From Planctomycetota bacterium (GTDB lineage Bacteria > Planctomycetota > Planctomycetia > Pirellulales > Lacipirellulaceae): DNA of 64,000 nt. Of this stretch, positions 13,538 through 24,947 are shown one piece after another. The position numbers were made by a program, and so were the translations under genes. How positions within the stretch are numbered: the first letter of the stretch is position 1; every line of letters begins with the position of its first letter. Below the pieces are notes generated by a model, which did not search any database, was not told the origin of the DNA, and saw only the letters and a list, made by a program, of their open reading frames with translations. The stretch lies in the NCBI GenBank assembly GCA_024278955.1, contig JAJRSE010000102.1, positions 62,001 to 126,000 of the forward strand. Reading direction: 5' to 3'.

Positions 13538-15886
13538 TCAGCTAAGTCGCGCAGATCGCAGTCGTAGCGCATTGACGATCACCGAAAGGCTACTCAAGCT
13601 CATCGCGGCTGCGGCGATCATGGGACTAAGCAACAAACCGAAAAACGGGTAGAGCAACCCGGCGGCGACGGGGATTCCCAGGACGTTGTAGACAAACGCG
13701 AAGAAGAGATTCTCGCGGATATTTTTCATGGTCTTGCGACTTAGGTGGCTTGCTGCGGCGACTCCCCGCAGGTCGCCTCCGACAAGCGTGACTCCAGCCG
13801 CTTCGATTGCCACGCCGGTGCCCGTTCCCATGGCGATGCCGACATCGGCCTCGGCAAGCGCGGGTGCATCGTTGATGCCGTCGCCAGCCATGGCAACGAC
13901 GCGCCCCTCACTTCGTAGCCGAGCCACAAAATGATGCTTGTCTTCCGGAGAAACCCCGGCACGGAATTCGTCGATGCACAGCTTGTCTGCAACCGCCCGG
14001 GCGGTCGGTTCTGCGTCGCCGGTTAACATGATCACTTTCAGGCTCAACTGGTGAAGCGTTTTTAGTGCAATCGGCGTGCTCTCCTTGATCGGGTCGGAAA
14101 TCGCCAGCATGGCCGCTGCTTCGCCGTCGACAGCAACAAGAATGGCAGTTTGGCCCTCTTCTTGATAGGACGCGGCCCGCCTGCGAGCTTCGTCCACTCC
14201 TGCAACACTCTGCTCGGCAAGAAAATCGGCTTTGCCGATCAGGACGGTTTTCCCGTTCACGACTGCGCGAACGCCGCCTCCGGTTATGCTTTCAAATTCG
14301 AGAGCTTCGACGAGCGAAAGCCCATCTGCCTTGGCGCGACGGACCACCGCTTGGGCCAATGGGTGCTCGCTTTGACTTTCAACCGCCGCAGCCATCGCAA
14401 CGATTTTTTCTTCCGTCCAATCCCCCAATGTTTCGACCGAAGTAACTTCTGGGCGCCCGAGCGTTAGCGTTCCCGTTTTGTCCACCACGATTGTGTCGAC
14501 TTTTTCCATGGTTTCCAACACTTCGGCATTCTTGATCAGCACGCCTTCTTTGGCACCACGGCCGACTCCGACCATCACCGACATGGGCGTAGCCAAACCG
14601 AGCGCACAGGGGCATGCGATGATCAGCACCGCCACCGCGGTGACAAAAGCGTAGGCCAGTTTGGGGTCTGGTCCCCACACGGCCCAGCCGATAAATGCCA
14701 ATATCGAACAGACGAACACGACAGGAACAAAGTATTGAGCCACTTGGTCGACCAATTTTTGGATCGGAGCCCGACTTCGCTGCGCGTCGGCGACCATCTG
14801 CACGATGCGGCTCAGCACCGAGTCGTTTCCGACGCTGACTGCTTCAATTACTAGCGCCCCGGTTTGATTCACGGTGCCGCCCGTCACTTCGTCGCCTTCG
14901 ACTTTCTGAACTGGTAGCGGCTCGCCCGTCAGCATCGATTCATCGATGCTACTCGATCCGCTCAACACACGGCCATCCACGGGGACTTTTTCTCCTGGGC
15001 GTACGCGCAGTCGATCTCCCTTGTGAACCAAGTCCAATGAAATTTTTTCCTCTCCTTCGTCCGTGATCCGATGAGCCGTGTCCGGCGCAAGTTGCATCAG
15101 CTCGCGAATCGCCCCGCCCGTTTGTTGTCGCGCACGCAACTCTAGTACCTGCCCAAGCAAAACGAGCGTGAGGATCACTGCCGCCGCTTCGAAATAGAGC
15201 GGGAGCTGGCCCTTCTCGTAAAAAGCTTCAGGAATCCAAGTTGGAAACAAGAGGACAAACAGACTAAACAGATAGGCCGCAAGGGTTCCAACCGCAATTA
15301 AAGAAAACATATTCAGGTTCAGCGAACGAAACGAACTGGCGCCTCGCGTCAGCAGTGGCCAACCGCACCAGAAGACCACCGGCGTAGCCAGAGCTAACTG
15401 AACCCAATTCAAGAATTGTACGGGCATCCAATCGGCAACGCGCAGCCCGATCATCGGCCCCATCGTAATCACGAGCAACGGGATCGACAACGCGACGCCA
15501 ACCCAAAACCGGCGATTCATGTCTTGCAGTTGAGCATCTTCCGATTCGGTGGAATCGCTGACAAACTTCGGTTCCAAGTCCATCCCACAGAGAGGACAAG
15601 CCCCTGGCCCGGCTTGCTCGACCTCAGGATGCATTGGGCAAGTGTAGATGTTTTTTTCAGTAGAGACGGCACCATCGTGAGCATCGCCGGAATTCACAGA
15701 GGTGGTGTCTGCTTCTGTTTTTGATTGCCGAGCAAGTATCCCTTGAGGATCACTGTCAAACTTCTTTTGACAGCTCTCGCTACAGAAAACAAATGTTTTC
15801 CCCTGGTACTCTCTTTTGAGTGCCTGAGCTGGGGAAACTTCCATTCCGCAAACTGGGTCGGTCGTTATCGCCTGGCTGGTGCTCAT
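13538..15886 (-). CDS. copA: Cu+-exporting P1B-type ATPase
   Basis: About 782 residues. The N-terminus has a YHS metal-binding domain ([25 protein letters not shown]) and a heavy-metal-binding motif YTCPMHPEV...[12 protein letters not shown] in place of the usual HMA domain. The core holds the TGE phosphatase loop (MLTGEPLP), the membrane CPC ([12 protein letters not shown]), the phosphorylation site DKTGTLTLG, an HP motif (SEHPLAQA) and [10 protein letters not shown]. The last membrane helices carry YN and MSLSS, the signature of the Cu+ subgroup P1B-1. The ATG at 15886 is preferred over an upstream TTG at 15904. It converges on the sugar operon. Confidence 0.9.
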
Positions 15887-15980
15887 CGTTTTTCTCGCTA
15901 CCAAGGATCTTTTACTATGACATGGCGTTGCTAGCAGTCTGGCGGGGCTGAAAATTGGTAACCGTTCACGAGATGGGAAA

Positions 15981-16155: not shown

Positions 16156-18054
16156 TTATAGGGCCGACAGCTCTTCGTACTGCTGTGCGCTCGCGCCGGC
16201 GAGGCAAGCTTCGATGATCTCGCGGCCCTTGGGGTCGAGGTCGGGGTCGAGAAACTTGCGGATTTGCTCATGGAAAAACTCGCTGAGGATGGCGGCTCCC
16301 TTGTCATAACCCTCTTCGCCGACTTCGGGCTGAGTCTCCACTTGCAGGAACCAGTGGCCGATGGTCTGGCCCTCGACCTGGATGGTACGTGGAGTTCTGC
16401 CGAGTAATGGGCAGCGAGATTCCAGCACTTTCTCTGGTGCAAATGGGTTGGCGCCGCGCCGTGCGAGATACTCTCGAGCGACCCACTGCGGGGCAAATCC
16501 AGTCTCCCAGCACCCGATGTGCTGGTTGGGGCAGATGATAAACATCGTATCGTCGGTGTTGAGTATCTGGTGCAAGAGAATGTTGGCTTGATCGACGCGT
16601 CGACCTGTGGCAAAAGGCCAGTACGAACCAACTCCCTCAGAAGTCATACCGCCCTCATCGACGATAGATGGGTTGCTGTAACCCCGTGGCGAAACCAAAC
16701 GCCATAACCAGGCCAGCGACGGGGAGAGGATATGGAATACGCCGAAGATTCCGTAGCTCGGATGTTCTCGGGTGCATGGAGGGCATCGCACTCCGAACGA
16801 ACGGATATCGACCGTGACCGGCTCATTAACAATGTCGGGGTAGTGCCGACGCGGGAAGACGATGCGAGGGTTGGGGCAGGGTACGCCAGGCTGGTCCTGA
16901 ATATGGTCCCAGATAAGCGCGGTGGAGCCAGGAGCCGCATCGATATTAAGAAACAACAATGGCGAAGGGGGATGAACCATGATCGCTTCGAGGTGAGGAT
17001 CGGTGCCATAGCGTGTGATGTGGTTGACGCGTAGGAACCAAGCCGATTCGGCGTCGGTGACGGTGAGCTTACGTTCCCGAGAGTCGGGTTTCTGGAAGTC
17101 GGGGTGGCAAAGAGCCATGTCGTCGGTAACGGGCCGAAGTTCGCAACCTCGCGGCAGGGCAACGTAGCGTTGTTCGCCAGTTACCGTGTTTTTACCGAGC
17201 TTGACCCGGCCGTCGGCCTGACGCTGCATCTGTCCGATCATCTCCGACTTGCCGCCGCCTGAAGCGCCTTCGTGCATGATGGTGACGGTATTATCATACG
17301 GGGTAATTACTTGAACCGTGGAGCAGTGGGCGGTGGTCCAGTCATTTTTCTCGCCAAGGGTCAGCAACATGCCGTAGACGCCCTTTTTGGCAGATGGCCC
17401 AGGGTAGAGGTTATAAGAGTAAAGTTCGTGCAAGCCCTCACGACGGTTGTGGACCACCACTTGCTTGCCGTCGAAGTGAGTGTGGCGGAACGGCGGGGCG
17501 ATATAGATGATTCCGTTGTGGTTGTAGGCGTCGCCCTGATTCTCAATATCTTCGAGGGGGATGATACCTTGAAGCATCGCCAAACCAAGCGCAAAAAATC
17601 CAGCGTTGGCTGGGCAAATGGCCAGAGAGGTTAGCCCCTTGCCGGCGCTTCCGGCATTGAAAAAGAAGCATGCCAAGTCTTGGGTCTTGAGCCAGGCAAA
17701 CGTCTCTTGCCGGATCTCTTCGAAATCTTTGTTGAACTTTCCATCGAACGTGGGCTTGTCGGTGGCTCCGTCATCGGCGATGAACATGCAATTCGGGTCA
17801 CGGCGACGCATGTAGGGATCGATGTAGTTTGCAGAGATGCCATTCTTGACCCGACAGACTTTGACCTCGGGGATAAACTCGCCATTCACATCGTAGCCGA
17901 CAGTGTAATAGCCATGGAGGTCGGTCTGGCCCTCAGGTACCGCCAAAGCCACCAGTTCTTCGACGCTGCCGACGAAGGTGACCGATTTGGCCTCTGCGAG
18001 GACGCTTTCGGCGGAATGAGAGAGCGAGACGTTGGGCATGAGGACCTGAGACAT
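16156..18054 (-). CDS. DUF4914 family protein, P-loop kinase-like
   Basis: A 632-residue cytoplasmic protein that I recognise as DUF4914. In the middle is HEGASGGGKSEMIGQM, a P-loop of the kind in PEP-carboxykinase-like and HPr-kinase-like folds. Other marked segments are FFNAGSAGKGLTSLAICPAN, the hydrophobic stretch LLFLNIDAAPGSTALIWD, and IICPNQHIGCWETGFAPQW. The reaction is unknown. ATG 18054 has AGGA upstream; the frame extends 15 codons further. The gene is single, with about 300 bases of empty sequence on its 5' side. Confidence 0.8.
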   Translation of the reverse strand: MSQVLMPNVSLSHSAESVLAEAKSVTFVGSVEELVALAVPEGQTDLHGYYTVGYDVNGEFIPEVKVCRVKNGISANYIDPYMRRRDPNCMFIADDGATDKPTFDGKFNKDFEEIRQETFAWLKTQDLACFFFNAGSAGKGLTSLAICPANAGFFALGLAMLQGIIPLEDIENQGDAYNHNGIIYIAPPFRHTHFDGKQVVVHNRREGLHELYSYNLYPGPSAKKGVYGMLLTLGEKNDWTTAHCSTVQVITPYDNTVTIMHEGASGGGKSEMIGQMQRQADGRVKLGKNTVTGEQRYVALPRGCELRPVTDDMALCHPDFQKPDSRERKLTVTDAESAWFLRVNHITRYGTDPHLEAIMVHPPSPLLFLNIDAAPGSTALIWDHIQDQPGVPCPNPRIVFPRRHYPDIVNEPVTVDIRSFGVRCPPCTREHPSYGIFGVFHILSPSLAWLWRLVSPRGYSNPSIVDEGGMTSEGVGSYWPFATGRRVDQANILLHQILNTDDTMFIICPNQHIGCWETGFAPQWVAREYLARRGANPFAPEKVLESRCPLLGRTPRTIQVEGQTIGHWFLQVETQPEVGEEGYDKGAAILSEFFHEQIRKFLDPDLDPKGREIIEACLAGASAQQYEELSAL

Positions 18055-18352
18055 TTTGACGATTCCTGATCGGGGATACGGTTGGGTGGCCTGTGCCAAA
18101 GTCTCTACCGCACAGGTGTATGAGAGTGCGGTTTGGAGGAGGAAACGGACAGGTGATAATAGTTTAGACCCTTAGCAGCGGTGGCGGTAGTCAGGCATTT
18201 TGTTCACATTGAGTGTTTGGCCACCGTCCAAAAAATTGGGGCTCGTTAAATTAGCCGTTTTGGTGCGAGGCACGGTTTTTTCTGCTCGAACAGTGGCTAG
18301 TGCCAAAACTGCCCCAGGTCTCAAAATCACGGCAAAAATCGGTGATGCAGCG

Positions 18353-19159
18353 TCAATGATGTTTATACCAACCGGTGCCAAGAATGTCGTTCCACGAGGT
18401 GGTTTGATGGCACTGAAAACATTGATCGACGCGTGCATGCGGCTTGCCGGCGACGCGGGCCGAAATCATTTTGAAGTGCATCATATAATGGCTGGGCGGC
18501 GCCTGATGACATTGGGCACAGTCCGTTGAGTTTGCGGGCGGGTGACGAAATTCGGGAATGGTCCAACGGTCTGTGGCATGGCATTGCGCGCAGTCTTGGC
18601 CAAACAGCTTGAAATGACGGTCGTCGTTGGCATGACAGGCCCAGCAGTTGAGTGTTGTTTCGGTGGCTGTAATGCGAAGATGGGGCGCGTTCTGAAGTTC
18701 GGTCTCCATGAGAATTACTCGACGCAAAATCTCATTCTCGCTGTCGGCTGTGTCACCGTCTAGTTGACGCAGGCCAATCTTGACCAGCGCCGTATGGTCC
18801 ATATTGGTCGGACGTTTATCCATTCCCTCGTGTTCTAAATGACATTCGGTGCAGCTACTGATGTTGGCATGGAACGCGGTCGGTTGCCGTTGTAAAATCG
18901 ACTCGTTGTTGGCGTGGCAAACAATGCACTTGGAAGTTTCGATGCCCCGGACGGAGGTATGGCATGCGGCGCAATTGTTTTCTAGGTGGGCATGAGCTGC
19001 TGACAATTTTCCCGGTTCAACCATCTGCTGCCAAACGGCCGGTTGTTTGAAGGAAGATTCCGTGGGCGTTAGCATCCAGATGGCAAAAAAGCTCAACGAG
19101 CTCGCGCCCAATACAATTCGGGTGGAAAACTTATTTTTCTTTTTTGATCTGGCTGCCAT
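18353..19159 (-). CDS. Heptahaem cytochrome c
   Basis: A 268-residue exported or membrane-anchored protein with seven CxxCH motifs: CAACH (63), CIVCH (78), CTECH (103), CWACH (172), CAQCH (190), CAQCH (214) and CFQCH (247). A single N-terminal hydrophobic segment (IVLGASSLSFFAIWML) after a basic stretch serves as signal or anchor. Additional histidines could be sixth ligands. It is the last gene of a run of five on this strand, 15 bases behind the cytochrome b-DUF547 gene, so it is probably the periplasmic electron partner of that membrane module. No catalytic family was recognised. Confidence 0.9.
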   Translation of the reverse strand: MAARSKKKNKFSTRIVLGASSLSFFAIWMLTPTESSFKQPAVWQQMVEPGKLSAAHAHLENNCAACHTSVRGIETSKCIVCHANNESILQRQPTAFHANISSCTECHLEHEGMDKRPTNMDHTALVKIGLRQLDGDTADSENEILRRVILMETELQNAPHLRITATETTLNCWACHANDDRHFKLFGQDCAQCHATDRWTIPEFRHPPANSTDCAQCHQAPPSHYMMHFKMISARVAGKPHARVDQCFQCHQTTSWNDILGTGWYKHH

Positions 19160-19174
19160 GTGCTTATGTTCCCC

Positions 19175-20803
19175 TCAGTCTTTCTTCTCGGCCAGAGCGG
19201 TGTCATTCAAGCCCCAATCGTGTTCAAAAAATCTGATCTTGATCTCGCCACGGTTAGCATCGATCCAGTCGCGTCCCCCGGGAGATCCCTCTTGGCCTGA
19301 TGGCGCATAGCGGCACACAAAGTCGATTAAATCGCGGTCTGTGCCATTGCCAAAGAGTTTTTGATCGGCTTTCAATATCCATGACAGGGTTAGCACTTTA
19401 CTTTGTTCGTCGATTGCCATCCCTTTGGTTGGATTGGCCAGTAGAGTGCGAATAAGGTTGTCGAGTTGTTCGTCGAGTTGCGCGGCAGAAAAAATACGAT
19501 CCATACGGTCGGGGCAACTAACGGCCGCACAGCTCACGGCAAATACGATTCGCGGGTCGTCAAACTTTTTGAGCAGGATTTCCTTTTCAATTTGACGCAG
19601 CGCATACCGCCCGGTGCCGACGAGGATGCCTGGAATTCCCCACGGATTGCCGTCACTGATCTTCGAGTCTGTAATCGAGGTCACCGGGTAATTTTCTGCT
19701 GCCAGCTTCATCGCGCCGAAATTGTAGACGTTAATCCAAAAAGCCTTTTCGTGGTCGCCTCCGCCAAGGCGATCGGGATCGACCTGTTCGAGCGCCAAGC
19801 GTGCCTGTGAAAAGTCGGACTCCGCCTGACCCACCTCGCTGGCGATGCCGGCATAATCGAATGCCGTGGTTCGTATGCCGTGAATGACAACCGGCTCGCT
19901 CCAATACTGTTTGAAGAGCTGGCCAAAATGGCGAGAAAAATTATCGACCGCAGCTGCGGAGTCGGACGCTTTAGATCGATCGGCGATGGGAGCCGAAGGA
20001 ACGGCCTGACTCGTAAAGTGCGAGGCGTTCGCATTCCACGAATCGAACCATCTCAAACCGAAATGAACCGCTCCCCAAATATGCAGCGCCATCAGTCCAT
20101 ACAGGACGAACGAAATCCAAATATGAAACTTCAGCCATTTGGCAAACCACGCCTTAAACTTCTCGTGGGTCTTGATGGCATATTCTACGTCTGCGATCGA
20201 CTCTGAGAGTTGAAGCAATCTGGCCGGACTGGGCAGGCCTTGAGTTGGCTCCTCAAAACGGTCGTGAACAAATAGGCTCCCGAGAAGGCGACCGAAGAAG
20301 CCGGAAAACGGTTTCAGCATTTGGGCGTGTTCCGGGAATGTGGCGAGTGTGGCTGCGGCTTGTTGGTAGGAGGTTTGGAGCGAGGCAAGGATTTTTTTCT
20401 TCTCACGTATCTCTTGCGAGAATTGGTTCATTAGATAACGGCCTACAAATCCACTCACCACGACCAGCAGCGTCATGGCCGTCAGCACGATACCCAGCGT
20501 GCTTTCGTATTTGTGCCCGCTATGGATTACCACCAAAATCGGCCCAAGCACGCCCGCATAAATATGCCAGGCCAAGAGGGTCTTCATCGAGGCCCAGGGC
20601 GCAACTTTCTTTTTTAGCCACTTGATCCGTTTGACGAACAGGTAGAGCAGCGGAACGAGCATCAGCAGAACGCCGATCACACCCAACACGCCGCCCCATA
20701 GGCTGCCAGCAAATCGCGACGACTGGTGAAACGGAAAGCCCAACCAAAGAATGAGCATCAGCGCAACGAGACCGGCAACGACGAGACGTTCTTTTTCTTT
20801 CAC
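19175..20803 (-). CDS. Di-haem cytochrome b-like domain fused to DUF547
   Basis: A 542-residue fusion. Residues 1-250 form about five membrane helices with two histidine pairs, H80/H94 and H227/H241, each separated by 13 residues, which suits two stacked b haems as in b561 or ferric-reductase-type proteins. A helical linker of about 80 residues lies between the pairs. From about residue 300 a DUF547 domain follows, with EKAFWINVYNFGAMK, DGNPWGIPG and AVSCAAVSCPD. DUF547 has no settled function. The gene ends 15 bases before the heptahaem gene and begins one base after the reductase gene, which implies one complex or pathway. Confidence 0.8.
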   Translation of the reverse strand: MKEKERLVVAGLVALMLILWLGFPFHQSSRFAGSLWGGVLGVIGVLLMLVPLLYLFVKRIKWLKKKVAPWASMKTLLAWHIYAGVLGPILVVIHSGHKYESTLGIVLTAMTLLVVVSGFVGRYLMNQFSQEIREKKKILASLQTSYQQAAATLATFPEHAQMLKPFSGFFGRLLGSLFVHDRFEEPTQGLPSPARLLQLSESIADVEYAIKTHEKFKAWFAKWLKFHIWISFVLYGLMALHIWGAVHFGLRWFDSWNANASHFTSQAVPSAPIADRSKASDSAAAVDNFSRHFGQLFKQYWSEPVVIHGIRTTAFDYAGIASEVGQAESDFSQARLALEQVDPDRLGGGDHEKAFWINVYNFGAMKLAAENYPVTSITDSKISDGNPWGIPGILVGTGRYALRQIEKEILLKKFDDPRIVFAVSCAAVSCPDRMDRIFSAAQLDEQLDNLIRTLLANPTKGMAIDEQSKVLTLSWILKADQKLFGNGTDRDLIDFVCRYAPSGQEGSPGGRDWIDANRGEIKIRFFEHDWGLNDTALAEKKD

Positions 20804-20804
20804 A

Positions 20805-22811
20805 TTACGCCTCCACCGTTACGTCGCCGGTGGACTTGGCCTGACATGCTAGGACCATGCCCGCTTTTTTATCGTCGGGCTCCAGACCGTCCTCAACTTC
20901 CATCGCGACTTGCCCAGCAAGAATTTTGACCGTGCAGACACCGCACATGCCTGTGCGACAGGAGTAGTCGATGTCAACGTCAACACGCTCTGATGCATAG
21001 AGGATCGTCTCGTCGGGTAAAAATTGAGTCGATTTCCCTGACTTCGCAAAGTTCACCTTGGCAGCGGTCTCGGTTGTCGGAACGCTGCCTGCTTTTTTTC
21101 GCTTGGCGGCCTTGGCACGAGGCTTTTGTTGCGAACCAAAGTTTTCTGAGTGAATGTTTTTCGCAGGCACACCCAGTTCTGCCAGCATCTCTTTGGTGGA
21201 GTCCATCATCGGCGGCGCGCCACAGATGTGGATCCACTTTGAACCGATATCGGGAACCCACTCAGCGAATAATTCCTTGGAAAGACGCCCGCGATGAACG
21301 CCCGGGATGTCTTTTTCAATACGGCTCATTGCAGCAAAGACATGCAAGTTTGGATGACGTTCTTGCAGGCGTTTAAGTTCGGTGGCAAAAATAAAATTTT
21401 CAGGATCGCGGCAGGCGACGAGAAAATAGATTTCGCCCGGCCATTCCATGTCGGTCATCGCTCGGGTGATGCTCATCATTGGCGTGATTCCGACGCCACC
21501 GGCGATCAGCACGACACTCTCTGCCTCCTTCCCGGTGAAGATGAACTTGCCGCTTGGCGCCTGAACTTCCAGGGTATCGCCCTCTTTGACCGTATCGTGG
21601 AGGTAGCGGGAGCCGGCACCTTGGTCTTCTCGCTTAACCGTCACCTCGCAGTAGTATCCCTGCGTCGGCGAAGACGAGATGGTGTAGCTCCGCCGGATCG
21701 GTTTTTCGCCTTCAACAATAGGCATCGTGATCGTGAGAAACTGGCCAGGAAGATAGCTGAACGGGATGCCGCCACCGTGACAAGCGACCAATCGAAACGT
21801 TTTTACGTCGGGTGTCTCTTGGTAAATCCTCGCCACGCGAAGTCGACAAAGTTTTCGTTTGCCGATGTGCAGTAGCCCTTGCGCGTTGGCCGACTCCTCC
21901 TCTGCGTCGCACTCGACGGCCGACTCTTGGCAACAATCCTCCGCCGCGGTTGCCGAGCTTTTTGCTATGGGCTCACGGGCCACTCCCGCCGGGTTGCTGC
22001 TTGGGGGCGTTGGTGCTGGTATTGTCGGTGCAGCGATTGCCGAAGGGTCTGCCGCCGCTAGTTTTTCCATAAGAGCAGCAGCTCGGCGCATCTTAAAGAA
22101 ATACATCCAAACCATTGCCGCGGCGAAGGTGATGAGCACCGCCATAATGCTCGTATGAAAGAGAGTCATGCCGAAAAGATGAAACCCTGGCTTGGCGGAG
22201 GCTCGGGATAGCAAGTTCATTTCGCGTTTGAACCAAGTGAGGGCTACGTTGCGAGGCGATTTGCCTTCGGCCAGTGCACGATGTGCGGCCAAACCGCTCT
22301 CGAATCGTGCGAGCCCTTCTCGCATCTTGGCGGTTGCCGTTTGCATCGTTGCAAAATCATCGCTTATTGCGGCATCGGAAAGTTCATCAATCCCCTTCGA
22401 CAGCAGTGCTGTGCCATCGATCATGCGCTGATGAGCTTCCTGCTTGATCTGGGCTCGCTCCTCCAGGGGTAAGTCGGGCAAGTCCATCAGTTTGGGATAC
22501 AAATCCTTGGGCTTGGGCGCGCCCATTTTCTTCATCATACCGCCCATGCCGCCGCCCTTGCCGCCCCCCATCATGCCGCCACCTTTACCGCCACCCATCA
22601 TCCCCCCGCCAGAGGATGGGGCCGATTCGCTACCTTGCGTGCTTGCTTCTGGGTTGCCTTGGGCTTGACCTGGGTGGTGCTGGGCGTGTTCATCGGGCGA
22701 AGCTTGTCCGTAGGTGAGCGGTATCTCCGCGAGAAAAGCCCCGAGAAGCGAAAGCATCGCCACCCCGGTCCATCGGAGCCTTGCAAAATACAGGGCCGCG
22801 TCTTTGATCAT
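20805..22811 (-). CDS. Membrane-anchored flavin reductase with 2Fe-2S domain
   Basis: A 668-residue multidomain protein. An N-terminal signal/anchor leads into a Gly/Met/Lys-rich stretch (repeated GGGMMGGGKG), a helical region, and a second membrane helix (MAVLITFAAAMVWMYFF). Then comes a short CC-containing acidic linker and an FNR-type module: RRSYTISSSP for FAD and VVLIAGGVGITPMMS for NAD(P)H. The C-terminus is a plant-type ferredoxin domain, CRTGMCGVC plus LACQA. The layout suggests electrons pass from NAD(P)H through FAD to the iron-sulfur centre, then probably to the adjacent cytochrome b. AAAGGAAATG precedes the ATG. An electron acceptor cannot be named. Confidence 0.85.
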   Translation of the reverse strand: MIKDAALYFARLRWTGVAMLSLLGAFLAEIPLTYGQASPDEHAQHHPGQAQGNPEASTQGSESAPSSGGGMMGGGKGGGMMGGGKGGGMGGMMKKMGAPKPKDLYPKLMDLPDLPLEERAQIKQEAHQRMIDGTALLSKGIDELSDAAISDDFATMQTATAKMREGLARFESGLAAHRALAEGKSPRNVALTWFKREMNLLSRASAKPGFHLFGMTLFHTSIMAVLITFAAAMVWMYFFKMRRAAALMEKLAAADPSAIAAPTIPAPTPPSSNPAGVAREPIAKSSATAAEDCCQESAVECDAEEESANAQGLLHIGKRKLCRLRVARIYQETPDVKTFRLVACHGGGIPFSYLPGQFLTITMPIVEGEKPIRRSYTISSSPTQGYYCEVTVKREDQGAGSRYLHDTVKEGDTLEVQAPSGKFIFTGKEAESVVLIAGGVGITPMMSITRAMTDMEWPGEIYFLVACRDPENFIFATELKRLQERHPNLHVFAAMSRIEKDIPGVHRGRLSKELFAEWVPDIGSKWIHICGAPPMMDSTKEMLAELGVPAKNIHSENFGSQQKPRAKAAKRKKAGSVPTTETAAKVNFAKSGKSTQFLPDETILYASERVDVDIDYSCRTGMCGVCTVKILAGQVAMEVEDGLEPDDKKAGMVLACQAKSTGDVTVEA

Positions 22812-22849
22812 GTCATTTCCTTTCGCTTCTCCAAACAGCCGTCACAAAT

Positions 22850-23521
22850 TCAAAGGACTTTGCTCGAAACGTATCGCTGTGGATCCGACATGAATTTTTC
22901 GTGACATCCGTGCGAACAAAAACAGTACATGTGACCGGCGTGCTCCGTTTCTTCGGAAGCAATGCTCCTGCGGAACCGCATACCGCATACCGGATCTGTA
23001 ACCAAGCTACTTTGCTGGTACTGGTCCGTTTGTTCGAGTTGCAGATAGGTGTCGACAAACGCGAGGATTTTTTCGTCTATCCATTCCGCGATCCGTTGCT
23101 GATCAGGAACGTCCACAGAAAAAGTGGCCTCATCGTGCCTTTCAAATTGAAAGAAGATCGGGATGATCTCCAAGTCATATAAAAGCAAGAGGTTTTTGAT
23201 TTCGGTGTCATGAGCAACAGAAAGCGTCAATTTGACTGTGGCCGGATACCGGGGCGAATGGTTGAAGCGACACACGCGGCAATGATTTCCGGCTTCGTTG
23301 CGTTCGAGCAAATCGGCATTGTCGAAGAAGCTCGCCAATTTCTCCATTCTCGAATCAATGACTGTTGTCATGAGTTCATCGGCCAATGGGTTGAACCTCG
23401 CATGACGGGCTTCAATTTCAGCCATTTTTGTTTGCAACTGAACTTGCTGGGTCCGGTCTTGCTCTTCGACAGCTTTTAGCCGCTGTTGTATTTGCTGCTC
23501 TAATGCTTGCAAGTTGCTCAT
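22850..23521 (-). CDS. YHS-domain protein with coiled-coil start
   Basis: A 223-residue soluble protein. It opens with a coiled coil (LQALEQQIQQRLKAVEEQDR), has a C-x2-C pair in HCRVCRFNHS, and ends in a YHS metal-binding domain (TDPVCGMRF, YCFCSHGCHEKFMSDP) close to the one at the start of the Cu+ ATPase in this window. The middle region is unfamiliar. It lies between the glutamate dehydrogenase and the flavin reductase genes with gaps of 58 and 38 bases. The ATG at 23521 is preceded by GGAG. A metal-sensing or metal-delivery role is inference. Confidence 0.75.
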   Translation of the reverse strand: MSNLQALEQQIQQRLKAVEEQDRTQQVQLQTKMAEIEARHARFNPLADELMTTVIDSRMEKLASFFDNADLLERNEAGNHCRVCRFNHSPRYPATVKLTLSVAHDTEIKNLLLLYDLEIIPIFFQFERHDEATFSVDVPDQQRIAEWIDEKILAFVDTYLQLEQTDQYQQSSLVTDPVCGMRFRRSIASEETEHAGHMYCFCSHGCHEKFMSDPQRYVSSKVL

Positions 23522-23579
23522 TTTATCGGCTCCAGGTCGAGAAATTTTGGTTTCGTTTGTGTGCGAATAGCGTTTTTCC

Positions 23580-24947
23580 CTACGTCGAAGCCAATCCGTT
23601 TGAGAAATACTTGTTCGTCCCGAGAGCCTCGACAGCAGCGCTGATCCGATTAAGCGCATGGGCGTAGGCTGCTGTCCGCATCTCGATGCCTTTGGCCGTC
23701 ATTAGATCGTAGATCGAATGGAATTCTTCGGTCATAATGGTCCGCAAGCGGGATTGCACTTCCTTTTCAGTCCAACTGTAGCCAGCGCGGTTTTGGACCC
23801 ATTCAAAGTAGCTTACCGTTACGCCACCCGCATTGGCAAGAATGTCTGGTACTACGAGTGTATTCCGCTCGGCCAAAATCTCGTCGGCATCGCTAGTGGT
23901 CGGGCCGTTGGCCACTTCGACGATCACTGGCGCCTTGATTTGGTTAGCATTGTTGGCAGTTATTTGATTTTCCAAGGCAGCAGGAATCAAAATATCAACA
24001 TCAAGTTCCAACAAAGCGGCATTGGAAATTTTTTCGCTCTTTGCTTCGTGCCCGTCGCTGCAATGACAATCTTCGCACTGGCACCCTTCGGATCCGCAAA
24101 CGGGACAATCACAGACAGACCCTTCGCAATAAACCGCATCGATGCGACGTGTACGATTCTTGGTTTCTATCAAACAGGGAATATCAAGGCCGTCGGGATG
24201 GTATACCCCTCCACGGGAGTCGCTGATGGCCACAACTCGGTAACCATCGGCGTGCAATAGCCGCGAGACGTGTTGCCCCGCATTCCCGAATCCCTGAACA
24301 GCAACGCGGGTGTCCGATGGCTGCCAGTCCTTCAGCTTCTCCAATTCCTTGATGCAATAATAGGCGCCGCGACCCGTTGCGTCGTCGCGTCCCAGGCTGC
24401 CGCCCAGCGGAATCGGCTTGCCGGTGATTACGGCCGGCGTACGCTGCCGACGTATCTTTGAATACTCATCCATCATCCAGCCCATGATCATCGCATTCGT
24501 GTAAACGTCAGGAGCGGGGATGTCGGTCTCTGGGCCAATGAAGTCCGCAACTTGTGCAATAAACCCACGGCTGAGCCGCTCCAACTCGGTCCTTGAGAGC
24601 TGCTTCGGATCGACAATAATGCCGCCCTTGCCTCCTCCGAACGGGATACTCACCACCGCACACTTACAGGTCATCCAGAAAGCCAACGCTTTCACTTCAC
24701 TCAGACAAACGCCTGGATGGAAGCGAATGCCGCCCTTGGTTGGGCCACGTGTGTCGTTGTACCGAACTCGATAACCTTGAAATACACGCAAAGATCCGTC
24801 GTCCATTCGCAGCGGGATGGACACCTGTAAAATCGACTTCGGATTGCGTAGCTTTTCCAAAGCTTCGGCGTCGATCTCGGCAAATTCAGCAGCACGGTCC
24901 AAGCGTCTGATAGCGTCTGAGAAAGTGTCGTTTTGTCCGGCTGTCAT
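23580..24947 (-). CDS. gdhA: Glutamate dehydrogenase-family enzyme with Cys-rich insertion
   Basis: About 455 residues of the Glu/Leu/Phe/Val dehydrogenase family. [20 protein letters not shown] and [15 protein letters not shown] hold the substrate and catalytic lysines, [17 protein letters not shown] the catalytic aspartate, and [13 protein letters not shown] the NAD(P)-binding loop. Unlike ordinary members, the Rossmann domain has an insertion with eight cysteines and two histidines in about 27 residues (24048-24128; C-x4-C-x-C-x2-C-x4-C-x-C-x2-C-x-C), which could bind metal. ATG 24947 has GGAAGG upstream; GTG 25025 would add 26 residues. It heads the run of redox genes. Confidence 0.88.

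Follow-up and report, generated by a model that had tools for sequence, protein, structure and literature searches.

We describe a module of three adjacent genes in a 64,000-nucleotide stretch of DNA from a Planctomycetota bacterium (hereafter the window; contig JAJRSE010000102.1). They encode a membrane-anchored NAD(P)H reductase with FAD and 2Fe-2S domains (FNR), a membrane cytochrome b (CytB) and a heptahaem cytochrome c (CytC). We propose, with a probability of roughly 0.45, that the module exports electrons from NAD(P)H in copper islands, most probably as a cupric reductase of the periplasm. The initial annotation of the window had described a five-gene operon in which a glutamate dehydrogenase (GDH) and a YHS-domain protein precede FNR, and CytB carries a DUF547 extension. 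All five genes are indeed present on the minus strand, without internal stops and separated by gaps of 58, 38, 1 and 15 bases (GDH/YHS/FNR/CytB/CytC); Pfam agrees with the families assigned to GDH, YHS, FNR, DUF547 and cytochrome c. The conserved unit, however, is FNR–CytB–CytC, three genes rather than five.

Searches with CytB gave six strong matches to its membrane part in 294 genomes of the phylum and 31 matches at E 1e-20 or better in 397 genomes of the class, and short patterns yielded six loci from a collection of 84,980 species, including metagenome-assembled genomes of Hydrogenedentota and Phycisphaerae. Two same-contig duplicates were dropped (L045 on the L033 contig, L054 on the L037 contig), as were loci matching by DUF547 alone or by weak N-terminal CytB similarity; L039 and L051 are near-identical and each is counted. 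CytB is followed by CytC in all 40 genome loci compared. FNR is recognisable before CytB in 39 (its end only in L042 and L064), the contig of the remaining locus, L058, ending at this point. Such conservation of FNR, CytB and CytC is far beyond chance. In Hydrogenedentota, outside the main phylum, 2 of 68 genomes had a CytC. The initial annotation had set conservation of the neighbourhood in relatives as its own test; what is retained is FNR–CytB–CytC and the nearness of GDH, not the five genes together, with GDH near 11 of the 40 loci, DUF547 fused in 7 and YHS present in 4. Its suggested route from NAD(P)H through FAD, 2Fe-2S and a membrane cytochrome b to haem c agrees with the company of the three genes in every locus. 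It did not include the copper-resistance context, the FNR domain rich in His and Met or the copies on plasmids, all described below.

Pfam, alignment and hydrophobicity/charge analysis give FNR the order of a signal-like N-terminus, an outer domain, one membrane segment and a cytoplasmic reductase; the signal-like start was noted by eye and lies below the hydrophobicity threshold used. Within the outer domain, an SPxEHxxHHP motif is followed by a Gly/Met-rich linker and a helical part. HxxHH[PG], with a YPxLM-like motif after it, occurs in 28 of 39 genome FNRs, several of the others being cut, masked or split, and HxxHH[PG] is kept in 10 of 13 plasmid FNRs. Methionine makes up a median of 15.3% of the linker (range 7.0–21.1; 28 loci), compared with 2.49% over all neighbourhood open reading frames (ORFs) longer than 150 aa. 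Seven loci (L063, L065–L070) have FNR in two pieces, one comprising the outer and membrane part and the other a separate reductase. The structure model of FNR (mean pLDDT 59.6) is usable for the reductase part only, which matches phthalate dioxygenase reductase (2pia, E 3.5e-23) in fold and in the order of flavin, NAD and C-terminal 2Fe-2S domains. The latter enzyme is soluble and supplies electrons to an oxygenase; unlike its family, FNR is membrane-anchored and possesses an outer domain.

Histidine conservation in CytB and CytC was assessed over 54 sequences, comprising the 40 genome loci, the locus L076 and 13 plasmid loci. CytB residues His 80, 94, 227 and 241 are kept in 53–54 of them, forming the pairs 80/94 and 227/241 in the third and fifth hydrophobic segments; each pair has a spacing of 14, in line with the 13-14 or so residues that separate haem-binding His pairs in the ferric reductase domain superfamily. 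Two more histidines, His 97 (53/54) and His 26 (52/54), fall in loops predicted to be periplasmic. Judging from charges, the N-terminus would lie on the inner side of the membrane together with the long loop that follows segment 4, and the C-terminus, with DUF547 attached to it, on the outer side. Passages of PMC7558416 and PMC3591440 describe a comparable arrangement for the ferric reductase domain (FRD) superfamily (Fre, NOX, STEAP, YedZ/MsrQ), with membrane haems on His pairs of the third and fifth helix, reductant on the inner side and electrons released on the outer; in long forms all four His are present and an NADPH/FAD part is attached, and eukaryotic members reduce Cu(II). CytB resembles the long forms as portrayed in part of PMC3591440, having all four haem-b His in its third and fifth hydrophobic segments. 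The module differs from the superfamily in its division between two genes, 2Fe-2S domain, His/Met-rich outer domain and heptahaem cytochrome c, and in scoring below the Pfam cut-off. Judged by these sequence features, CytB probably works like an FRD protein; kinship is not proven. Weak matches to PF01794 (Ferric_reduct) occur in 11 of 21 CytB members (best E 5.5e-4), and similarity to DUF4405 is also below cut-off. Against PDB sequences, the CytB profile has a best E of 0.053, to an ATP synthase subunit, and the profile of the DUF547 part a best E of 0.19. The CytB-DUF547 structure model, based on 7 sequences, has a mean pLDDT of 69.2 and a weak membrane part.

The DUF547 domain is fused to CytB in the window and in L033, L034, L035, L036, L037 and L046, as well as in L076, a second Hydrogenedentota locus. 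These fusions are scattered across the tree; their presence in Planctomycetota classes and Hydrogenedentota and absence from close relatives suggest repeated loss or gain. Missing in 33 of 40 loci, this lineage-specific extension was dropped as a core part. Six aligned fused proteins share a conserved C-A-A-V-S-C-P in DUF547.

CytC is a protein of 268 aa with CXXCH at residues 63, 78, 103, 172, 190, 214 and 247, which matches the seven haems given to it by the initial annotation. Its signal- or anchor-like N-terminal stretch was noted by eye and is below the hydrophobicity threshold used. Seven CXXCH motifs are present in CytC of 39 of the 40 genome loci (six in L067) and of all 13 plasmid loci. 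Seven further histidines outside these motifs (56, 97, 110, 122, 182, 206, 224) are invariant in 54/54 sequences and are likely the distal haem ligands. The pattern fits seven bis-His haems, so that CytC would be a wire and not an enzyme, and it speaks against a catalytic haem of the kind found in nitrite reductases. The best E of the CytC profile against PDB sequences is 0.083, over a short stretch only, and the cut-offs were reached neither for the NrfH family TIGR03153 (20.3 bits, cut-off 134.2) nor for the MtrC/MtrF outer-membrane cytochromes PF22113 (24.7 bits, cut-off 30).

Table 1. Features of the module and of its surroundings in the window (positions in the 64,000-nucleotide stretch).
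Feature	Position	Strand	Basis or remark
FNR	20805-22811	-	Pfam FAD_binding_6/NAD_binding_1/Fer2
SPDEHAQHHP motif of FNR, residues 38-47	22671-22700	-	
FNR His/Met-rich domain, residues 37-211, predicted extracytoplasmic	22179-22703	-	hydrophobicity and charge
Gly/Met-rich stretch of FNR, residues 68-97	22521-22610	-	8 Met in 30 residues
FNR membrane segment, followed by positive charge	22089-22178	-	hydrophobicity and charge
FNR FAD domain, cytoplasmic	21543-21836	-	Pfam
FNR NAD(P) domain, cytoplasmic	21192-21509	-	Pfam
FNR 2Fe-2S domain, cytoplasmic	20835-21041	-	Pfam
CytB-DUF547	19175-20803	-	DUF547 by Pfam
CytB membrane core, putatively dihaem, five hydrophobic segments	20039-20803	-	hydrophobicity, charge, conserved His
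C-terminal CytB extension with DUF547, predicted outside the membrane	19175-20038	-	
DUF547 domain	19454-19756	-	PF04784, E 6.7e-15
CytC	18353-19159	-	Pfam cytochrome c3/c7
GDH (glutamate dehydrogenase)	23580-24947	-	PF00208/PF02812
Cys-cluster insertion of GDH, residues 272-296	24060-24134	-	
YHS-domain protein	22850-23521	-	PF04945; optional partner
DUF4914 gene	16156-18099	-	directly downstream of CytC
CopA-like copper P-type ATPase with YHS and HMBD domains	13538-15904	-	TIGR01511 above cut-off; downstream

The genome loci share a set of neighbours related to metal resistance and to reductant supply. Neighbours were taken as BLAST clusters of ORFs within 9 kb, with one Pfam-scanned representative per scanned cluster; all counts are lower bounds, many contigs ending within 9 kb and several clusters being unscanned. 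A Met-rich protein carrying a Metal_resist domain (PF13801 in scanned representatives) accompanies 21 of 40 loci and lies upstream in 20 of these; its small AMPK1_CBM companion stands alone in 2 further loci. By neighbour clusters, a heavy-metal P-type ATPase lies near the module in 11 of the 40 loci, an outer-membrane efflux protein and glucose-6-phosphate dehydrogenase (G6PDH) in 7 each, a multicopper oxidase, a Na+/H+ exchanger and a SLOG-family protein in 6 each, hemerythrin and a glucoamylase family in 5 each, and glycogen phosphorylase and an M50 peptidase in 4 each. Genome-wide counts in 35 genomes (53 matches for G6PDH, 81 for the GDH family, 178 for copper-type ATPases) give chance expectations that ignore relatedness: a copper-type P-type ATPase (TIGR01511) lies within 9 kb of CytB in at least 12 genomes vs 0.45 expected, G6PDH in 8 vs 0.13 and GDH in 10 vs 0.22. 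Near ATPase matches number at least 13; the one in G442 is counted by its nearer end (8,992 bases), and that in G439 is below the TIGR01511 cut-off.

The CopA-like ATPase of the window belongs to these recurrent neighbours. Another contig of the window genome (G000 C78, L128:8237-9752) carries a YHS and a Met-rich Metal_resist protein side by side, in the vicinity of a CusB-HMBD gene and apparent sigma/anti-sigma genes; the window operon and this Cus-like island may work together. Elsewhere, an AMPK1_CBM/CBM48 glycogen-recognition module with cysteines is fused to the Met-rich protein or located beside it (L034:1860-3425), and small AMPK1_CBM-type ORFs are also present in L047, L057, L060, L065 and L074. 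Sugar binding and metal resistance make an odd pairing. In the window itself, the DUF4914 match spans nearly the whole protein (E 1.5e-299), and a promoter scan gave 4 sigma-70-like sites vs 5.9 in shuffled sequence.

The module is also carried by plasmids. Among 72,556 plasmid records, 53 show a match to CytC; in 51 of these a single place accounts for at least 80% of the query. Identities are about 41–57% (28% in one weak record); 26 of the matching records are typed conjugative, and the hosts include Sphingobium, Alteromonas, Rhizorhabdus, Legionella, Sphingomonas, Variovorax and Spirosoma. Thirteen of the 53 records were fetched for neighbourhood reading, and FNR, CytB and CytC are collinear in every one, the CytB frame of the Legionella anisa plasmid being short (match to residues 1-179). 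Several of these plasmid genes are annotated merely as 'hypothetical protein' or 'cytochrome c3 family protein'. In the tree, Variovorax copies fall inside a planctomycete clade (support 85) and the Methylophaga copy pairs with L059 (support 89), a pattern suggestive of transfer between phyla.

Copper genes or heavy-metal ATPase genes accompany 11 of the 13 plasmid copies vs 3 of 13 controls (one-sided Fisher P = 0.002), counting products named copper, Cop, multicopper, cupredoxin or heavy-metal P-type ATPase, a criterion fixed after the stretches had been viewed. As controls we took stretches of 20.1 kb lying roughly opposite the module on each plasmid; three module stretches exceed that length (24.7–28.8 kb). 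When the count is limited to 10 kb on each side, 9 of 13 copies remain (P = 0.024), the copper genes of Alteromonas and Methylocystis lying just beyond 10 kb. A multicopper oxidase together with CopB occurs on both Variovorax plasmids and on those of Bradyrhizobium, Sphingobium, Caulobacter and Acetobacter, and a multicopper oxidase with copper ATPases on the Spirosoma plasmid. The others carry a copper ATPase (Methylocystis), CopC/CopD and a P-type ATPase (Alteromonas), CopD, a P-type ATPase and a cupredoxin (Salinimonas) or a heavy-metal P-type ATPase (Methylophaga); four-helix copper-binding genes are found beside plasmid copies as well.

Some plasmid neighbours concern the supply of electrons or haem. 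NiFe hydrogenase genes adjoin the module on the Alteromonas plasmid (L098:16028-25982), and a hydrogenase small subunit is encoded near it on the Bradyrhizobium plasmid (L103:19875-20771); H2 might be another electron source for the module. On the Methylophaga plasmid, genes annotated as ccmA to ccmI and CcdA lie beside the module (L097:15963-23189), as if this plasmid supplied its own haem-attachment machinery.

Gene conservation, motifs, the topology pattern and the context of copper genes and NAD(P)H suppliers are the observations from which we infer haem ligation, electron order, complex formation and Cu(II) as the acceptor. Cytoplasmic FNR domains would transfer hydride from NAD(P)H onto the flavin, and the 2Fe-2S cluster would pass single electrons to a haem b on the cytoplasmic side of CytB (His 80/227). 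From there the electrons would reach the haem b on the periplasmic side (His 94/241) and then the seven haems of CytC. Given established redox potentials, electrons that start from NAD(P)H can run through the module only outward. The likeliest acceptor would be Cu(II) held by the outer His/Met-rich part of FNR and, in loci that encode it, by the Met-rich Metal_resist protein; Met sites would bind the Cu(I) produced, and Cus-type or CopA-type systems of the same islands would remove it. NAD(P)H would be kept up by GDH in the window and by G6PDH or other dehydrogenases elsewhere. Four observations point to copper as the target: the FNR head rich in His and Met, the Met-rich partner protein, the nearby ATPases of the copper type and the copper genes on plasmids.

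Several points, in addition to the reservations attached above to the chance expectations and plasmid counts, weigh against this proposal. The window CytB scores 13.9 bits against PF01794, the cut-off being 28, and Foldseek with the poor CytB model found nothing in the PDB below E 0.5 (best 0.54). The count of seven distal ligands in CytC is not forced, because His 228, 267 and 268 are nearly invariant as well (50–52/54). The FNR linker of the window consists of 14% Met and 37% Gly, and the Met-rich Gly repeats may represent low complexity instead of Cu(I) sites. Among the plasmids, the control stretches of Methylophaga, Bradyrhizobium and Legionella meet the copper criterion, those of Alteromonas and Pontibacter carry RND, mer or other metal genes outside it, and the module stretches of Legionella anisa and Pontibacter lack a gene that meets it (Pontibacter has RND efflux only). 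The plasmids being rich in metal genes as a whole, some of the copper context may be an association at the level of the island. In addition, several pairs of plasmids are closely related. From the side of chemistry, the multicopper oxidases found nearby are known for the reverse reaction, and Cu(II) reduction in an oxic periplasm could raise toxicity.

The same copper setting may be read differently. The exporter could repair a copper-damaged periplasm, acting on oxidised Met, wrong disulfides or oxidants made by copper; the Met-rich proteins would then be substrates that are either sacrificed or repaired. MsrPQ and the Scs/Dsb systems do such periplasmic repair by other means, MsrQ being another name of YedZ. 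Such a role would suit the Met-rich proteins, which 21 of 40 loci encode, and the copper context of both genome and plasmid loci. YedZ is assigned to the FRD superfamily in the portion of PMC3591440 that deals with it. We nevertheless consider repair rather unlikely: no methionine sulfoxide reductase or MsrP appears among the scanned neighbour representatives or the named plasmid neighbours (no profile search was made, and several clusters are unscanned), and the haems of CytC look bis-His, so CytC should not be a peroxidase.

Alternatively, the module may be an outlet that passes surplus reductant from glycogen, glutamate, alcohols or H2 to outer acceptors when oxygen is short, the copper genes being companions in a stress island. 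Glycogen phosphorylase, the glucoamylase family, AMPK1_CBM, G6PDH, hemerythrin, the Na+/H+ exchanger and the M50 peptidase among genome neighbours point in this direction, as do glgP, AdhP, aldehyde dehydrogenase, gnd and hydrogenase on plasmids. The recurrence of copper genes or heavy-metal ATPase genes by 11 of 13 plasmid copies argues against it, as does the lack of a porin-cytochrome partner among the neighbour representatives scanned, which do not cover all clusters, and we find an outlet of this kind doubtful. Improbable, in our estimate, is the use of the module for reduction of another metal or oxyanion (Fe, Ag, Hg, chromate), copper genes travelling along as metal islands cluster. Plasmids do carry several metal systems, for example mer in Alteromonas and arsenic genes in Acetobacter, and one plasmid CytB is annotated as 'iron reductase'; yet it is multicopper oxidase and CopB that recur by the Variovorax, Bradyrhizobium, Sphingobium, Caulobacter and Acetobacter copies, and copper-type ATPases that stand beside the genome copies.

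GDH, which the initial annotation tentatively placed at the start of the chain, passes the cut-off for both ELFV domains (PF02812 and PF00208) and does contain the Cys-rich insertion reported there, at residues 272-296, with the pattern SVCxCPxCG...CxC. This cluster is present in all 11 module-linked GDHs; among 20 other planctomycete GDHs, hand-picked from about 70 remaining GDH matches, it is full in 2, partial in 2 and absent in 16. One of the two full-cluster enzymes lies near a contig end (L111) with the downstream side unreadable, in a genome where only one CytB was found. The other is located in L110 (G510:C1:5044200-5064000), a second GDH/antiporter/Met-rich island on the same chromosome as the very similar L051; FNR-CytB-CytC was not found in this near copy, which is flanked on one side by a CusB-like gene with HMBD domains. 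The Cys cluster thus appears to mark a GDH subfamily of these islands and may have a metal- or redox-sensing role. GDH adjoins FNR in 9 of its 11 loci, is one gene off in the window and lies further away in L050. Nearly all GDH loci belong to one clade of the tree, and the association with the module may therefore be one old event that was kept. Of the 29 loci where GDH is missing from the stretch covered, the sequence reaches 5 kb or more upstream of CytB in 22 and 9 kb or more to either side of it in 13, the others being shorter. YHS is even less constant: the protein of the window's cluster occurs in only 4 of 40 loci, and in L033, the closest relative, none separates GDH from FNR; YHS was rejected as a fixed member.

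A five-gene chain specialised in feeding glutamate oxidation into periplasmic haems is accordingly very improbable, for all the adjacency of GDH to FNR and the island-bound Cys-cluster subfamily, given the 29 loci without GDH, the Cys-cluster GDH of L110 that lives without the three genes, and the 13 plasmid stretches in which no GDH was found. Glutamate oxidation as the defining feed is not supported: in other loci it is G6PDH, sugar-polymer enzymes, alcohol and aldehyde dehydrogenases or hydrogenase genes that accompany the module, and GDH would be an optional supplier of NAD(P)H.

Returning to the cupric reductase proposal, CcoG offers a parallel, being a membrane protein proposed as Cu(I) supplier to copper P-type ATPases. 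CcoG has two 4Fe-4S clusters and an unknown donor, whereas the module would take electrons from NAD(P)H and pass them through FAD, 2Fe-2S, haem b and haem c; no Pfam Fer4 family was detected in the core proteins at E 0.001, and FNR has Fer2. Metal-resistance islands and plasmids of Alteromonas, in the portions of PMC4781885 and PMC8478169 that describe them, share copper P-type ATPase, MerR, cupredoxin and hydrogenase genes, and an Alteromonas plasmid in our collection carries the module among such metal-island genes. A strain with a metal-resistance plasmid tolerates zinc, mercury and copper at levels inhibiting its conspecifics, as stated in part of PMC4781885, and a plasmid island with copA and hydrogenase genes is reported in a section of PMC8478169. 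The word 'cytochrome' is absent from the main texts of both papers, and the module is not discussed in the portions of them considered here. CytC has matches in seven Alteromonas plasmid records; FNR, CytB and CytC are all present in the one fetched. We found no description of an FNR-CytB-CytC module in the open-access literature, as represented by the parts of papers covered.

We speculate, more tentatively than for cupric reduction itself, that in this module bacteria possess an equivalent of the surface cupric reductases of eukaryotes. This reductase, present in Planctomycetota, Hydrogenedentota, Proteobacteria and Bacteroidota, would be encoded by three plasmid-mobile genes and would combine an electron path from NAD(P)H to the periplasm with a seven-haem wire and a built-in Met/His copper-binding head. 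It would then form an overlooked arm of copper islands that comes with NADPH-making enzymes. If this is true, copper resistance in these bacteria would depend on the export of reductant, beyond efflux and oxidation, and the presence of dehydrogenases, sugar-polymer enzymes and hydrogenases in copper islands would be accounted for.

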